A DNA stretch of 64,000 nt from Lachnospiraceae bacterium (GCA_949383255.1 CASJPF010000011.1:1-64000), one strand, 5' to 3'. Shown: positions 49,359 through 56,645, counted from the stretch's first letter. The notes: generated by a model from the letters alone, not told the origin. Program-made: numbers and translations.

Positions 49359-51950
49359 ATGGAACAGTATACAGTAACTGGCATGAGTTGTGCTGCTTGT
49401 AGCGCCAGAGTGGAAAAAGCAGTGTCAAAGCTGGAAGGTGTCAGCGCTTGTTCTGTAAGTCTGCTCACAAACTCGATGGGAGTGGAGGGAAGTGTGTCGG
49501 CTGTGGAGGTAATCAGAGCGGTCGAAGAGGCAGGATATGGTGCGTCATTAAAGGGAAAAAGCAATATCCAAAGCAACACTCGCGCAGAACAAGAAGAAAT
49601 GTTTAAAGATAAAGAAACGCCAGTGTTAAAGCGCAGATTATGGTATTCTATTGGATTTCTGGTTGTTTTGATGTATTTTTCGATGGGACATATGATGTGG
49701 GGATTTCCGGTTCCTAAATTTTTACAAGAGAATCATGTTGCAATGGGGCTGATACAGCTTTTGCTTACAATTGCAGTGATGGTCATTAACCAGAAATTTT
49801 TTATCAGCGGTTTTAAAAGCCTTTGGCACAGAGCACCCAATATGGATACACTTGTTGCACTTGGATCGACAGCGGCATTTGTCTATAGTCTTTATGCGTT
49901 GTTTGTCATGACTGATGCCCAGCTAAAGGGTGACAGCATGGCGGTAATAGAGTATATGCACGAATTTTATTTTGAGTCGGCAGCGATGATATTGACCTTA
50001 ATCACTGTGGGGAAGATGTTGGAAGCGCGCTCGAAAGGGCGCACAACAGATGCGCTGAAAGGTTTGATGAAAATATCGCCAAAGACCGCAGTTTTGGTGC
50101 GAGATGGCATTGAGACAGAAGTTCCCATTGAGGCGGTGGCAGTGAATGATATTTTTGTAGTGCGTCCAGGGGAGAATATTCCTGTGGATGGAGTAGTGCT
50201 GGAAGGAACTAGTGCGGTCAATGAGGCAGCGCTTACCGGGGAGAGTATTCCTGTGGATAAGCAGGCGGGAGATTTGGTATCTGCGGCTACAGTTAATCAG
50301 TCAGGTTTTATTAAATGCAGAGCGTCGAGAGTTGGAGAAGATACCACACTATCACAGATTATTCGTATGGTAAGTGACGCGGCAGCAACAAAGGCACCGA
50401 TTGCAAAGGTGGCTGACCGCGTGTCTGGTGTGTTTGTACCAGCGGTGATTGTAATTGCACTGATAACCATTTTTATTTGGCTTTTGGTAGGTCAGACACT
50501 TGGATTTGCACTTGCTAGGGGAATTTCAGTGCTTGTTATTAGCTGTCCTTGTGCGTTGGGGCTTGCCACGCCAGTAGCAATTATGGTTGGAAATGGTATG
50601 GGGGCTAAAAATGGCATTATGTTTAAGACTGCAGTGTCTCTTGAGGAGGCGGGAAAGGTTTCTATTGTAGCACTTGACAAAACCGGAACCATTACAAGAG
50701 GAGAGCCGAAAGTGACAGATATTGTTCCTGCTGCGGGTGTATCAGAACAAGAACTAATTTGTATGGCATATGCACTAGAACAGAAGAGTGAGCATCCATT
50801 AGCACACGCTGTCAATATATACGCGGAGGCGTATTTTGCCGACCATCCAGAGTGTGCCAAAGAGCAAATGATAGAAGGTTCTGATTTTAAAGCATTGCCT
50901 GGCAATGGATTGACAATCGTTGTCAACGGCAGAGAGTTGTATGGTGGAAGCGCAAAATTTATTGGAGAGAAGATAAAGATTCCACAGGAGTTTATACAGC
51001 AGTCTGAAAAGCTTGCAGAGGAAGGAAAAACACCACTGTTTTTTGCAGATGACAAGTTACTTGGTATGATAGCAGTCGCAGATGTGATAAAAGAGGACAG
51101 CAGGCAAGCTGTAGAAGAATTGCAAGGTATGGGAATCCATGTTGTAATGTTGACTGGTGATAATGAACGTACTGCAAAGGCTATTGGAAAGCAAGTTGGT
51201 GTTGATGAAGTGATTGCGGGTGTGCTTCCTGACGGGAAGGAGAGCGTGATACGAAGCTTAATGAAAAAGGGAAAAACTGCCATGGTAGGAGATGGTATTA
51301 ATGACGCGCCGGCATTGACAAGGGCAGACATTGGTATTGCGATTGGTGCTGGAACAGATATTGCGATTGATGCCGCGGATGTAGTGTTGATGAAAAGTCA
51401 GTTAAGAGATGTTCCGGCAGCGATTCGGTTGAGTCGAAGGACATTGACCAATATTCATGAAAATCTTTTCTGGGCGTTTTTTTACAATGTAATAGGGATT
51501 CCGCTGGCAGCAGGTGTATGGATACCACTTTTGGGGTGGCAGCTTAACCCAATGTTTGGTGCTGCTGCGATGAGTTTGTCTAGTTTTTGTGTGGTGACAA
51601 ATGCACTGCGGTTAAATTTGATAGATGTATATAGTACAAAACATGACAAGACATATATCAGTGGCAAAAAGGAGCATATACAGTCACAGACTGTCTATGA
51701 ATATAAAAATCAAGAAGTCGAAAAAGGAGAGATGACTATGACAAAGACAATGAAAATTGAAGGAATGATGTGTGGGCATTGTGAGGCGAGAATAAAGAAA
51801 TGTTTAGAGGCGCTTAATGGTGTGTCAGAGGCAGTGGTCAATCATGAGGCAGGGACAGCAGTGTTGACCCTAAGCGCAGAAGTCAGCAACGAGACTTTGA
51901 AAAAGGTAGTAGAAGAACAGGATTATAAAGTAGTATCTGTGGAATCGTGA
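49359..51950 (+). CDS. copA: Copper-translocating P1B-type ATPase with N- and C-terminal heavy-metal-associated domains (CopA-CopZ fusion)
   Basis: [50 protein letters not shown]-terminal [18 protein letters not shown] domain. Confidence 0.95.
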
Positions 51951-52135: not shown

Positions 52136-52164
52136 TTGAAAAAATGTAAAATAATGTTTATAAT
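52136..52164 (+). promoter_or_regulatory. Sigma-A-type promoter of the lipoprotein-subtilase pair
   Basis: TTGAAA - 17 bp - TATAAT. Confidence 0.7.
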
Positions 52165-52286: not shown

Positions 52287-52676
52287 GTGCGCAGAATAGG
52301 TGGATTTCTATTTGGAGTCCTATGTATTGGTATGTTTGGCAGTTTGTTAGTGGCTTGTAACGACAGACGAAAAATGGATGAAAGTTCTATTCCAAAAATT
52401 TCACAATTTATTGAGACGGAAAACGCTTCTGAGATCGAGAAAAAGCAGACGGAGTTGATTGCGTTGGCAGAAGATCAGACAGAGGCAGAAAAGACAGCAA
52501 AACTTTACGGAATAGAATTGATTTCATTTTCAGATGGCGTGGCAGTTTATACGACAGACAAAGATTTACAAGAATTAATGGAGTTGGGGGATAACAATGG
52601 ATATCCAACATTGACAGTGAACAGCAATCACTATCAGTTGGAAAGATTGAGTGAAGTTGCTGATGACGTGCAGTAA
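52287..52676 (+). CDS. Small lipoprotein resembling a subtilase propeptide
   Basis: Lipobox LLVAC; GIELISFSDGVAVYTT ... YPTLTVNSNHYQL parallels the propeptide region of the adjacent protease; GTG start. Confidence 0.75.
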   Translation: MRRIGGFLFGVLCIGMFGSLLVACNDRRKMDESSIPKISQFIETENASEIEKKQTELIALAEDQTEAEKTAKLYGIELISFSDGVAVYTTDKDLQELMELGDNNGYPTLTVNSNHYQLERLSEVADDVQ

Positions 52677-52760
52677 ATACTTTTAACTGTGTGGTTGTAA
52701 ATAATAGTGTGAAAGCTTTAGCGCATGTTTGAAATACACTTTAGGAAAGGGGAAAGGAAA

Positions 52761-55700
52761 ATGAAATTAAAGAGAACAAAGATCGTTTCTGCCATATTAG
52801 CTGTGTCTATGGTTCTCAATACAACAGGGATAACCGTTTTGGCAGAATCGAACGATAAGGCAGATGCTATTGCGTCTGAAACAGAAACAAATTTGGAAAC
52901 GCTGATAGATGCTATGGAATCTGAAGAGGAGACGATAACAGAAACCGCAGAGGAATCAGATTCTTTCGAGGAGACAATAGAGTCCTCTTCCTCTGAGGAG
53001 ATAGTGACAGAAACAGTTTCCATTGAAGAAGTAACAACGGAAGCCATTTCAACGGAAGAAACAACAATGGAGATTGTTTCTTCTGATATAGAAGAAACAA
53101 CAGAATTAGAAGCAACAGAAACAGAGTCAACAGAAGAGACAACGATAGAAGAAACAGAGACAGAAGAGACGACGATAGAAGAAACAACGATAGAAGAAAC
53201 AGAGACAGAAGAGACAACGACAGAAGAAACAATGATAGAAGAAACAGTGACGGAAGAGACAACGATAGAAGAAACAGAGACAGAAGAGACAACATTGACT
53301 TTAGAGGAGATAGAAACAGAGACAGCTGAAAAAACAGATGCTCTATTTTCGGGGCTTCCAGAAGATTATACACTTTCGTCAAAACAGCAGAAAGATAAAT
53401 CCACATTAGCAGCGTTTGCGGATGAGATATTAGAACTTGAGGAGGAATCCGATGATTCTGAGGCTTATGTAAAAGGAGAAGTGGTATATTTGACAGACAG
53501 CCAAGAAGATGCGCTGGCTGTTGCAGAAGGCTTTGACGGTGAGCTTAAGAGTTTTGGAGATGGCGTGGCTGTTATTTTACTTAGTGAAAAACGGACTGTA
53601 GGGCAAGCAGTAAAAGCAGCGTCAAGTAAATCTTATAATCTTCCAGCGGTTTGGCCTAATTATTATTATCGACTTTTTGAAGAATATAATGATCCTGCGT
53701 TAAAAGAGAACAGTGAATACTATCAGTGGGCACATGAGTACATTGGCGATCAGTATGCGTGGGAGAACGGTTATAAAGGGGAGGGTGTTAAAATTGGTAT
53801 TATTGACACCGGAGTACATAGCACACATGAAGATTTAAAAGAGAATGTAGCACAGAATCTGACAATGGTTTCAGAAGGTGGAGCTGCGACAACAACAGAC
53901 CCAGAAGGACATGGAACACATGTTGCGGGTATTGCTGCCGCCGTTGCAAACAATGGAAAAGGAGGGGCAGGTATTGCTCCAGATGCACAGATATATGCAT
54001 ACAGCGTTATGGATTCGAATGGTAATATGCTAGATGAGTATATTCTAAGAGCGATTAATAGGGCAATTGATGATGGCGTGGAAGTTGTCAACATGAGTCT
54101 AGGAAGCGGTTACTATAATGGAAATGAAGAGAGTATAATAGAGAAAGCATATCAAAATGGTGTTGCCATATTTGCAGCGGCTGGAAATGAAGCTACAAAT
54201 GGGTATGAATATCCCGCCTCTTATGATAATGTGTGTTCTATTGCCGCGATTATGCAAGATGGAAGCAAAGCAGGATTTACCAATTACGGAGATATGATTG
54301 ACCTTGCTTTTCCCGGTGTGGAGATATATTCTACGATTAATGATTCTGATGATCAGTCCTATGATTTTATGCAGGGTACTAGTATGGCATGCCCTGTTGC
54401 GGCAGGGACTGCGGCGGTGATTTTGTCTGCATCAAATGAGATAGACGCACTTAAGGGAAAGAGCGGATCACAGAAAGTTGACGCGCTGTTTTCTATTATG
54501 AAGAAAAATGTTGTGAAATCTTCTTCCTCCAAAATAGGTGCAGGTACTACTTATTTGCCGAAAGTATTAGGAATCAAAATTGCGGCGGTAGATGAGGCTC
54601 CTCAAGCGCCAGTAATTAAAAATACAGAAAATACGACTACATTTAAAAAAGAATGGGAGGATATATCCATTGAGTGTAGTTCGCCGGATACGGAGATTTA
54701 TTATTCTATCAATGGTAAAAAACCTGCATTTAAAAATGGTATTGTGACAAATGGTGAGCCATTGATAGAAGGAAAAGCGCGCGTCGGTGGTGCAAAGCAG
54801 GTTACTTTGAGTGTGATTGCAGTAAACCATATTACAGGCAAGGCAAGCAAAGTGGTTTCACAGAAATATAGTTTTGAGCCAGAACCTTCCAGTGTGACGA
54901 TCACTGCCGCAGACTCTGTAAACAAAATTGCTAAAGGGAAGAGTTTAACGCTATATGCAGCAGTTGAGCCTTCTTATGCAAAATTTGGAAATGGTAAAGT
55001 TGTCTGGGAAGTAGCGGATAATTACAGTGGGGTTAAGGTAAACAATAATGGTAAAGTAACAATAGAGAAAACTGCGTCTGCGGGTGAGTGTAAAATTCTT
55101 GCAAAAGCAGGTGCAGTACAAGACGAATTTTATCTGACGATTTTAGATTCGGTAAAAATTAAAAAGATTACTTTTGTTACGAAAAAGTATACAATCTATA
55201 CAGGAGATTCGATCAATATTCTTAAAAAAGAAGATGACAGCAATAATCTTACAATAGACGGCGGAGAAATCACAGATATTGTATGGAGCAGTAATAATCA
55301 GAAGGTTGCAGTTGTAGATGCAAATGGAATGGTTACTGCATTGGGTCCGGGAAAAGCAGTTATCAAAGCAACTGCCAATGATGGAAGCAAAAAAGCTGCA
55401 AGTTGTACCATTACTGTAAAACAGCTTGCAGATAGCATTGTATTAAAAGGTCCAGAAAAGATAGCAGCTGGCAAAAGCGCAGTGATTCAGGCGAGTATAT
55501 TGCCAATCAATGTATCGAGCAAAAAATTGAACTGGGCTGTTAAACCAATTGAAAATGCGAGTGGTATTGTAACAGTCAATGCAAGTGGAAAGGTTTCTGT
55601 CAAGAAGGGTGCAAGTGGAAAATTTGAGGTGACCGCAACGGAGAAAGGCGTTCCGGAAGGAAAAGAGCCTAAGATGGCAAGCACCTCATTTGAAGTTGTA

Positions 55701-56645
55701 ACAAGTCCAATTACAAAGATTGGAATACCAAAAACAGTGAATTTATTTACTGTATCGGGAAATTACAATGCCCCGACACAATTTCAGCTAAAACCAGAAG
55801 TGGAAGGCGGTGATGGCAAAGGGATTCAATTTATAAGCAGTGCACCGGGAATCGCATCGGTTGATTCCAGTGGATTGATTGTGGCACATTCCAGTGGAAA
55901 AGCAACAATTACTTGCAGTGCGACAGATGGAAGTAATAAAAAGGCAAAGTGTAATGTTGTGGTAAGTGTTCCTATGTCAAGAATTGCTATTGTGCCCAAA
56001 AATGGTAATGAAGGGATTGTCTCTGTAGGTTCAAAGATTACACTTTCTGCAAAAATAAGCAACAATTTTGGAAAAGCAGCAAACCAGAAGGTGAAATGGA
56101 GCATTATGTCCGGCGGAGAGCAGTATGCTGAGATCGATGAAAATAAAGGGATTATAAAGGGAATCACATCGGTTATTACATCAAATCGATATCCGCAGAT
56201 TTATGTTAAGGCGGAGGCAGCAGATGGAAGCGGCGTAAGCGCTGTTTATCCAGTGATTGTGATTCCAAAAGTTGATAAGTTAAATTTTGAGTGGGATGGA
56301 TTTAGTAATAATATTAATAGTAAAGGGATATATTTTTCCCTCTCTATGTCTATGAAGGGATATCCGAATGAGGTTTTTGTACCTTCCTATAATGTTGATA
56401 TTAGTGGTGGAAAGGGAATTGGTTATCATACAATAAAGGGAGGATTTATCTTGGTCCCAACAAAACCAACAACAGATAAAACGTATTCGCAGTTAGTCAT
56501 ATCTGAAAATATGGTGCGGTGCAAAGACAGCGATATTCAATCTGTGACTGTGACCGTAACATTGAAAGATGGCTCAAACAAGAAAGCTGTACAAAAACTC
56601 AATTTAATTTATACAAAAGACCAGCAAATAATCCTTTTGGAATAA
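52761..56645 (+). CDS. Secreted S8 subtilisin-like serine protease with Thr/Glu-rich region, chitobiase-like and Big2-like domains
   Basis: Asp (GIIDTGVHSTHED), His (GHGTHVAGIAA), Ser (GTSMACPVAAG) triad; signal peptide; C-terminal Ig-like repeats. Confidence 0.94.
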   Translation: MKLKRTKIVSAILAVSMVLNTTGITVLAESNDKADAIASETETNLETLIDAMESEEETITETAEESDSFEETIESSSSEEIVTETVSIEEVTTEAISTEETTMEIVSSDIEETTELEATETESTEETTIEETETEETTIEETTIEETETEETTTEETMIEETVTEETTIEETETEETTLTLEEIETETAEKTDALFSGLPEDYTLSSKQQKDKSTLAAFADEILELEEESDDSEAYVKGEVVYLTDSQEDALAVAEGFDGELKSFGDGVAVILLSEKRTVGQAVKAASSKSYNLPAVWPNYYYRLFEEYNDPALKENSEYYQWAHEYIGDQYAWENGYKGEGVKIGIIDTGVHSTHEDLKENVAQNLTMVSEGGAATTTDPEGHGTHVAGIAAAVANNGKGGAGIAPDAQIYAYSVMDSNGNMLDEYILRAINRAIDDGVEVVNMSLGSGYYNGNEESIIEKAYQNGVAIFAAAGNEATNGYEYPASYDNVCSIAAIMQDGSKAGFTNYGDMIDLAFPGVEIYSTINDSDDQSYDFMQGTSMACPVAAGTAAVILSASNEIDALKGKSGSQKVDALFSIMKKNVVKSSSSKIGAGTTYLPKVLGIKIAAVDEAPQAPVIKNTENTTTFKKEWEDISIECSSPDTEIYYSINGKKPAFKNGIVTNGEPLIEGKARVGGAKQVTLSVIAVNHITGKASKVVSQKYSFEPEPSSVTITAADSVNKIAKGKSLTLYAAVEPSYAKFGNGKVVWEVADNYSGVKVNNNGKVTIEKTASAGECKILAKAGAVQDEFYLTILDSVKIKKITFVTKKYTIYTGDSINILKKEDDSNNLTIDGGEITDIVWSSNNQKVAVVDANGMVTALGPGKAVIKATANDGSKKAASCTITVKQLADSIVLKGPEKIAAGKSAVIQASILPINVSSKKLNWAVKPIENASGIVTVNASGKVSVKKGASGKFEVTATEKGVPEGKEPKMASTSFEVVTSPITKIGIPKTVNLFTVSGNYNAPTQFQLKPEVEGGDGKGIQFISSAPGIASVDSSGLIVAHSSGKATITCSATDGSNKKAKCNVVVSVPMSRIAIVPKNGNEGIVSVGSKITLSAKISNNFGKAANQKVKWSIMSGGEQYAEIDENKGIIKGITSVITSNRYPQIYVKAEAADGSGVSAVYPVIVIPKVDKLNFEWDGFSNNINSKGIYFSLSMSMKGYPNEVFVPSYNVDISGGKGIGYHTIKGGFILVPTKPTTDKTYSQLVISENMVRCKDSDIQSVTVTVTLKDGSNKKAVQKLNLIYTKDQQIILLE
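53130..53292 (+). repeat. Imperfect tandem repeat tract encoding TIEETETEET-type repeats
   Basis: Repeated ACGATAGAAGAAACAGAGACAGAAGAGACA units and variants within the protease CDS. Confidence 0.85.

Follow-up and report, generated by a model that had tools for sequence, protein, structure and literature searches.

A predicted membrane-anchored, propeptide-like lipoprotein encoded beside its partner subtilase in Lachnospiraceae

Introduction

What purpose would a second propeptide serve for a secreted subtilase that already carries one of its own? The question is posed by two adjacent genes in a 64,000-nucleotide stretch of a Lachnospiraceae genome (GCA_949383255.1, CASJPF010000011.1:1-64000; hereafter the window), and it is a clean one; about 50 natural pairs are available for addressing it, and the residues concerned can be named (hairpin 81-85, tail 112-118). 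The S8 propeptide fold has a known chaperone role; to our knowledge, the stand-alone mimics of subtilase propeptides described so far come chiefly from a few eukaryotes, the other example being ORF2, which occurs in Aeromonas and certain further Gram-negatives together with a propeptide-less enzyme. We found no earlier description of trans-acting subtilase propeptides in Lachnospiraceae in the open-access library consulted. A reading made from the window's sequence alone had proposed that a small lipoprotein is a separately encoded copy of the propeptide of the subtilase next to it, and the analysis reported here follows up that proposal.

Organization of the locus

Two + strand genes sit between a copA-type P-ATPase gene and tyrS, and a 129-residue lipoprotein at 52287-52676 next to a subtilase is indeed what the window encodes. 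The features referred to below are the following.

52136-52164, + strand, sigma-70-type promoter-like site (TTGAAA-17 nt-TATAAT) upstream of the lipoprotein gene, with 11 of 12 consensus bases
52287-52676, + strand, lipoprotein gene for a stand-alone propeptide-like protein of 129 aa, predicted to be membrane-anchored, with a start backed by a conserved ribosome-binding site
52287-52358, + strand, lipoprotein signal peptide as read off the sequence, with lipobox L-V-A-C (LLVAC) and Cys24 at 52356-52358
52428-52652, + strand, propeptide-like module (residues 48-122) with a predicted beta-alpha-beta-beta-alpha core, from prodomain homology and AlphaFold2 (core pLDDT about 72-90)
52527-52541, + strand, beta2-beta3 hairpin F81-S82-D83-G84-V85, with F81, S82, D83 and V85 partner-matched (z 3.5, 5.2, 8.0 and 4.3 within clusters)
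52620-52640, + strand, C-terminal strand and tail N112-L118, with positions 115 and 117 partner-matched (z 4.7 and 5.6)
52761-56645, + strand, gene for a secreted S8 protease of 1294 aa (Peptidase_S8, E 1e-50; Big_2, E 7e-24; Fn3_assoc)
52880-53330, + strand, Thr/Glu-rich repeat linker ahead of the prodomain, with tandem repeats at 53093-53293
53454-53690, + strand, cis prodomain module (residues 232-310), homologous to the lipoprotein module by BLASTP and profiles, with a weak PF22148 Fervidolysin_NPro-like match (E 0.013)
53553-53567, + strand, cis prodomain hairpin F265-G266-D267-G268-V269, counterpart of lipoprotein F81-V85
53778-54440, + strand, S8 catalytic domain (residues 340-560), with Asp (IIDTG), His (HGTHV) and Ser (GTSMACP) motifs intact

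The lipoprotein starts with GTG, a choice supported by an AGGTGA-type ribosome site (AGGAGGTGA in one relative) that is kept ahead of the GTG in relatives. Its layout is simple: a lipobox with Cys24, which is invariant among five distinct genus relatives, a low-confidence linker and a single module some 70 residues long. The 129-residue protein matches nothing in Pfam or NCBIfam, and a parvulin (peptidyl-prolyl isomerase) domain is absent from it in the same databases. The protease begins with an ATG 84 bases beyond the end of the lipoprotein gene, with a second possible in-frame ATG at 52725, and comprises in order a signal peptide, Thr/Glu-rich repeats, the prodomain, the S8 catalytic domain, a Fn3_assoc stretch and Big_2 repeats. 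The tandem repeats within the Thr/Glu-rich region are built from 15-, 30- and 45-base units, and their length varies among relatives.

The promoter that had been suggested for both genes is present, and it is the only strong promoter-like site ahead of either gene, although it is its strength alone that is notable, the scan having returned 4 sites against 2.6 in shuffles. Since this single strong site lies upstream and the stretch separating the lipoprotein and protease genes showed nothing terminator-like, co-transcription of the two is plausible.

The closest named genus relatives of the window genome are 'Lachnospiraceae bacterium' A4, IMSAGC_011, UBA7205 and two bins; A4, which is culturable, has the pair too (L019). 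We note that JAAZZQ010000075.1 (G037; L012/L017) encodes a lipoprotein 99% identical to that of the window together with a near-identical protease, and that G037 is nominally a different species, both genomes having been entered as separate species representatives.

Homology of the lipoprotein module and the cis prodomain

The likeness between the lipoprotein and the region ahead of the protease catalytic domain, noticed by eye in the sequence-only reading, is above chance. BLASTP aligns the two proteins with an E-value of 7e-4 (29% over 63 aa), and the 'Y-x-P-x-x-x-N-x-Y-x-L' pattern at the end of the module is real, albeit with a one-residue offset between lipoprotein and protease. When the single lipoprotein was searched against all six frames of the 4.4-Mb genome, the sole non-self match was the adjacent prodomain (E 0.03), and in each of the six carrier genomes a profile built from five relatives picked out at E<=0.01, besides the lipoprotein, the adjacent prodomain alone (E 2.4e-5 to 4.0e-4); across the 38 genomes of the genus this profile found nothing further at E 0.01 beyond the lipoproteins and their adjacent prodomains. 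Profile-profile scores climb as more diverse members join, from 95.6% (E 1.2e-8) with five sequences per side, through 98.5% (E 3.3e-15), to 99.2% (E 3e-19, 68 columns) when 26 and 22 diverse sequences are compared. We take the homology of the two modules as established.

PF22148 (Fervidolysin_NPro-like) matches 16 of 22 cis prodomains weakly (best 2.1e-5) and none of the stand-alone modules, while PF18492 (ORF_2_N) matches 8 of 26 lipoprotein relatives weakly (best E 0.0012); the window lipoprotein itself falls below every Pfam threshold, that of ORF_2_N included. Pfam I9 (PF05922) finds no match in the lipoprotein, the prodomain or their relatives, and sequence searches of the PDB with stand-alone and prodomain profiles gave chance matches only.

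Predicted fold of the stand-alone module

AlphaFold2 prediction from five aligned lipoproteins gives a beta-alpha-beta-beta-alpha core over mature residues 31-90 with disordered ends; the element order is E-H-E-E-H, the last strand being short, and the mean pLDDT of the model is moderate at 65. Foldseek ranks two structures of Aeromonas sobria ORF2 first and second, 3wqb_B (in which it is bound to the protease ASP) with probability 1.00 and 2mk4 with probability 0.99, and these matches to the mean-pLDDT-65 model have E-values of 0.02-0.05 and TM-scores of 0.34-0.44. Fervidolysin (0.90) and a lanthipeptide protease (0.82) follow, within an overall E-value range of 0.02-0.2, and no match to the lipoprotein model was found at E<0.001. 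With modest E-values and a moderate model the Foldseek result is weak by itself, but ORF_2_N, an independent approach from sequence, adds the weak matches in relatives given above. Structure prediction had been chosen beforehand as a point at which the proposal could fail through unrelated folds; it yielded a propeptide-like core with ORF2 as the top solved-structure match. The model of prodomain plus catalytic domain, at pLDDT 43, is too poor for judging docking.

Pairing across Lachnospiraceae genomes

Within the genus the lipoprotein occurs in 6 of 38 genomes and the protease prodomain in the same six, and since all six pairs share the copA neighbourhood this pairing alone could reflect shared ancestry of one locus. 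A survey of the family (397 genomes, 334 genera) revealed distant stand-alone modules in G135, G139, G307, G309, G347, G392, G418 and G444, each adjoining an S8 protease, in neighbourhoods that elsewhere include the rplL/rpoB region (G139, G347) and the dnaK/dnaJ region (G444). In the genus of G135 there are matches in 38 of 77 genomes; retrieval of all its short-frame matches at E<=0.001, added to the earlier loci, gave 55 stand-alone modules. All 55, from at least nine Lachnospiraceae genera, adjoin an S8 protease on the same strand, with gaps that are mostly within 60 bases and at most 407. Lack of conservation in related genomes had likewise been named in advance as counting against the proposal, and the pairing proved to be conserved across genera and in differing neighbourhoods. 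The module/protease pair is thus a family and not a local curiosity.

A cis prodomain was found in every paired protease except that of L124, a partial reading frame at a contig end (54 of 55). Tandem-array partners at L137 and L148 were reassigned ahead of the final statistics. In the 54 usable pairs the stand-alone gene comes first in 45 and the protease in nine. A lipobox or hydrophobic N-terminal segment precedes nearly all modules, the exact type of anchor varying, and the G418 module has no visible anchor. In this last case (L087:7326-7565) neither a signal peptide nor a membrane segment was seen and a TTG start follows GGAGGAG; it may be either a cytoplasmic version or one that has lost its export signal.

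Proteases with the same type of prodomain also occur without a companion, in G454, G439 and at other loci of G307, and this type of enzyme can therefore do without the companion. Companion-less subtilases with this prodomain at L093, L089, L094 and L095, some of them in tandem, are useful natural controls. In genus g95 (L122, L127, L128, L131, L137) there are tandem arrays of at least two subtilase genes with stand-alone propeptide genes interspersed, which look as if protease/partner units duplicate and diversify jointly.

Outside the family, no match at E<=0.001 was found in 391 genomes of the class, and the 246 genomes examined at order level gave only two weak matches, G472 and G061 (E 0.007). 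Short frames in G375 (351 aa, E 0.007) and G472 (156 aa, E 0.003) were rejected as chance matches with no adjoining protease; a 254-residue frame in G429 is really the start of a protease truncated by a contig end.

Origin of the stand-alone modules

In a module tree built on 79 columns, such that deep branches are uncertain, twelve stand-alone modules ('type A'), most of which end in NGYP-x-L-x-x-N, form one clade with support of 99/95, and the duplication that gave rise to them is therefore old. The G347 module and the downstream-type module of G444 branch among prodomains, pointing to a second origin of stand-alone modules. A second type of module, with an LPxVYPNY end and QVAVIQI, lies downstream of the protease at L086, L154, L155, L157 and L158; the only one of these placed in the tree, that of L086, branches among cis prodomains, and the type is apparently an independent origin of the same arrangement.

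Partner-specific residue matching

Across the 54 pairs a stand-alone module is on average closer to the prodomain of its own partner than to those of other partners, with an excess of 0.025 in identity that was reached in 0 of 20,000 shuffles. The same was so (0/20,000) when shuffling was confined to clusters 50 or 60% alike, with p 0.03-0.07 for 70% clusters, and permutation of a set reduced to a single pair for each genus or type gave p 0.004-0.007. The excess lies in a few columns, in the beta2-beta3 hairpin and at the module end, the latter corresponding to T110, H115 and Q117 of the window lipoprotein (z 3.5, 4.7 and 5.6). At the D83 column (column 37) the partners agree in 28 of 54 pairs, where 10.3 would be expected (z 8), and inside 70% clusters the 28 matches compare with 22.8 expected (p 0.004); the matched switches include D/N/E within the window's genus, Y/S within g95 and K in G309. 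The N112 column is almost invariant among 26 diverse members.

Codon identity at the matched residues is 0.438, near the 0.407 expected from codon use, so that the similarity between partners is not mainly due to gene conversion or recent copying; recent duplication was likewise judged minor on the same figures and on the support for the type-A clade.

The columns were chosen blind to published interface sites, the literature having been consulted afterwards. In Plasmodium SUB1 and pernisine a residue at the hairpin turn, linked to cognate selectivity, plugs a pocket of the catalytic domain, and the propeptide's C-terminal tail lies substrate-like in the active site (PMC6993865, PMC10580911); the matched residues correspond to exactly these published contact sites between propeptide and subtilase. 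This partner-specific matching extends the sequence-only proposal. Covariation of the hairpin residue with columns of the catalytic domain is dominated by shared ancestry; several of the highest-ranking columns fall within the two helices that should make up the pocket, but not convincingly above chance.

Discussion

The proposal that the lipoprotein is a separately encoded propeptide copy of the adjacent subtilase is borne out by homology, a propeptide-like predicted fold and conserved pairing; in the manner of a propeptide, the module most likely binds to the catalytic domain of the protease encoded beside it. We consider it probable, at about 0.58, that the lipoprotein is a trans-acting, membrane-tethered propeptide that inhibits its own protease near the producer's membrane, in the manner of an inhibitor or immunity protein. 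Anchoring, binding, inhibition and a protective role are what we infer from a homology, a pairing, a predicted fold and a covariation that were computed. In the mechanism that we propose, a separate lipid-anchored copy of the I9/ORF2-type prodomain fold would bind the catalytic domain of the adjacent subtilase, with the module beta-sheet packing on the enzyme, the hairpin tip F81-S82-D83 acting as the plug and the tail N112-L118 occupying the active-site cleft like a substrate; we note that the tail of the window lipoprotein runs beyond the likely P1 position, unlike that of a perfect product-like inhibitor. The protease would fold with its own cis prodomain, and because it has this prodomain for folding, the likeliest job of the second copy is capture: the tethered module would seize and inhibit enzyme that matures near, or returns to, the producer's membrane, shielding the secretion machinery and envelope.

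The closest parallel is ORF2, which inhibits ASP with an IC50 of 84 nM and places its C-terminal tail at the active site (PMC5638518). There, too, a separately encoded propeptide-like protein has its gene directly beside that of an S8 protease, but ASP has no propeptide of its own, as the title of the structure paper cited in that source puts it, whereas the protease described here retains a homologous cis prodomain; furthermore, the ORF2 gene lies downstream of the protease gene whereas the stand-alone gene here is usually upstream, and unlike ORF2 the module carries a lipobox or membrane segment. Small separate proteins of propeptide fold that act on a subtilase are also found among the eukaryotic I9-type mimics, including POIA1, yeast proteinase B inhibitor, Arabidopsis SPI-1, Toxoplasma MIC5 and Plasmodium SUB1-ProM, the last of which has its gene beside that of SUB1 and retains both the hairpin plug and the capping residues (PMC6993865). 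These mimics are not described as membrane-anchored in that source and some have no sequence similarity to the propeptide of their target, whereas here homology to the partner's prodomain is detectable and covarying. Since the partner has a propeptide and no I9 model matches, we do not file the lipoprotein family under ASP/ORF2 or I9; by analogy it would work like both without membership in either. The protease prodomain resembles, through weak matches, the fervidolysin-like type (PF22148), and fervidolysin is among the Foldseek matches of the lipoprotein, but fervidolysin-like prodomains are N-terminal parts of enzymes and not separate proteins. What appears to be new is a Lachnospiraceae family of predicted membrane-anchored modules, with partner enzymes that keep a homologous cis prodomain and with covariation at contact sites.

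Lipoproteins and inhibitors of other kinds are encoded with proteases elsewhere. PrcB, a lipoprotein of Treponema denticola, shares an operon with a subtilisin-family protease, its gene lying upstream; it binds this protease, which needs it (PMC8167434). Compared by description only, it differs in its size (23 kDa), in being described as without homologues outside oral Treponema and in that no propeptide homology is reported for it. The lipoprotein of the window is unlike the PrsA/PrtM foldase lipoproteins in lacking the parvulin domain. In the operons for SpeB and Spi (a propeptide analogue), for staphopain and staphostatin and for Bacteroides C10 proteases with lipoprotein-type inhibitors, a dedicated small inhibitor is thought to protect the producer and some of the Bacteroides inhibitors bear lipoprotein signals (PMC2873492), but these are cysteine proteases and the folds are unrelated.

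Inhibition is not the only role that a tethered propeptide could play. The anchored module might be a trans-chaperone, ORF2-like or PrtM-like, that aids folding or activation of the long multi-domain protease on the outer face of the membrane after secretion, besides or in place of the cis prodomain and with inhibition as a by-product. ORF2, the nearest structural neighbour and strongest single analogue, is needed by ASP as a chaperone, chaperoning is a known property of the S8 propeptide fold, and a lipoprotein gene that usually comes first (45/54) and an anchor that would place its product at the folding site fit such a role; yet a cis prodomain is found in all but one of the paired proteases whereas ASP has none, relatives with the same prodomain and no companion indicate that the companion is not essential for the enzyme type, and type-B pairs (for example L086 and L154-L158) mostly have the stand-alone gene after the protease, so that we regard chaperoning as the main role as rather unlikely. 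Less likely again, and in our view improbable, is a lipoprotein that serves mainly to hold the processed and otherwise unanchored protease at the cell surface, with neither inhibition nor folding as its chief task. Neither an LPXTG motif nor a C-terminal membrane segment is visible in the protease sequence, anchors are kept in nearly all modules though their type varies, and PrcB, an acylated subunit from the same operon, has been proposed to anchor and stabilize its subtilase complex (PMC8167434), but a tether has no need to keep an active-site tail or to match the tail residues of its partner's prodomain, and binding of the propeptide type would block the active site.

It is also conceivable, though we think it very improbable, that the modules are diverged by-products of prodomain duplication, drifting neutrally or put to an unrelated use, with their neighbourhood reflecting ancestry alone. 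One or two tandem duplications could yield all pairs, and in the window's genus the entire copA neighbourhood is shared; against this, the modules stay open and anchored in at least nine genera, the pair occurs in several unrelated neighbourhoods, the type-A clade (99/95) implies an old duplication, the codon identity given above (0.438 against 0.407) speaks against a main part for gene conversion or a recent renewed duplication, and matching to the own partner at contact sites is unexpected without selection.

Inhibition by a tethered propeptide, with a role in immunity, is favoured because the protease has its own prodomain, relatives without a companion exist, the tail is both kept and matched, and separate propeptide mimics (ORF2, SUB1-ProM and others) inhibit.

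A broader and more tentative suggestion is that Lachnospiraceae hold diversifying pairs of protease and immunity protein, in which each Big_2-type subtilase of this kind would travel with its own tethered trans-propeptide, the hairpin plug and tail of which track the cis prodomain. If so, a cell would be protected from its own version of the protease only, as with toxin-matched immunity proteins. The analysis assigns a likely function to small lipoproteins that lie outside every Pfam and NCBIfam family, and offers a handle on how gut Lachnospiraceae may restrain large secreted proteases at their own surface.

A further observation concerns the gene upstream. The copA-type P-ATPase frame (49359-51950) continues into an additional HMA (CopZ-like) domain, and the ribosome-site-like AAAGGAGAG lies within the frame just 5' of an in-frame ATG near 51737; a separate CopZ might therefore also be produced from within copA.
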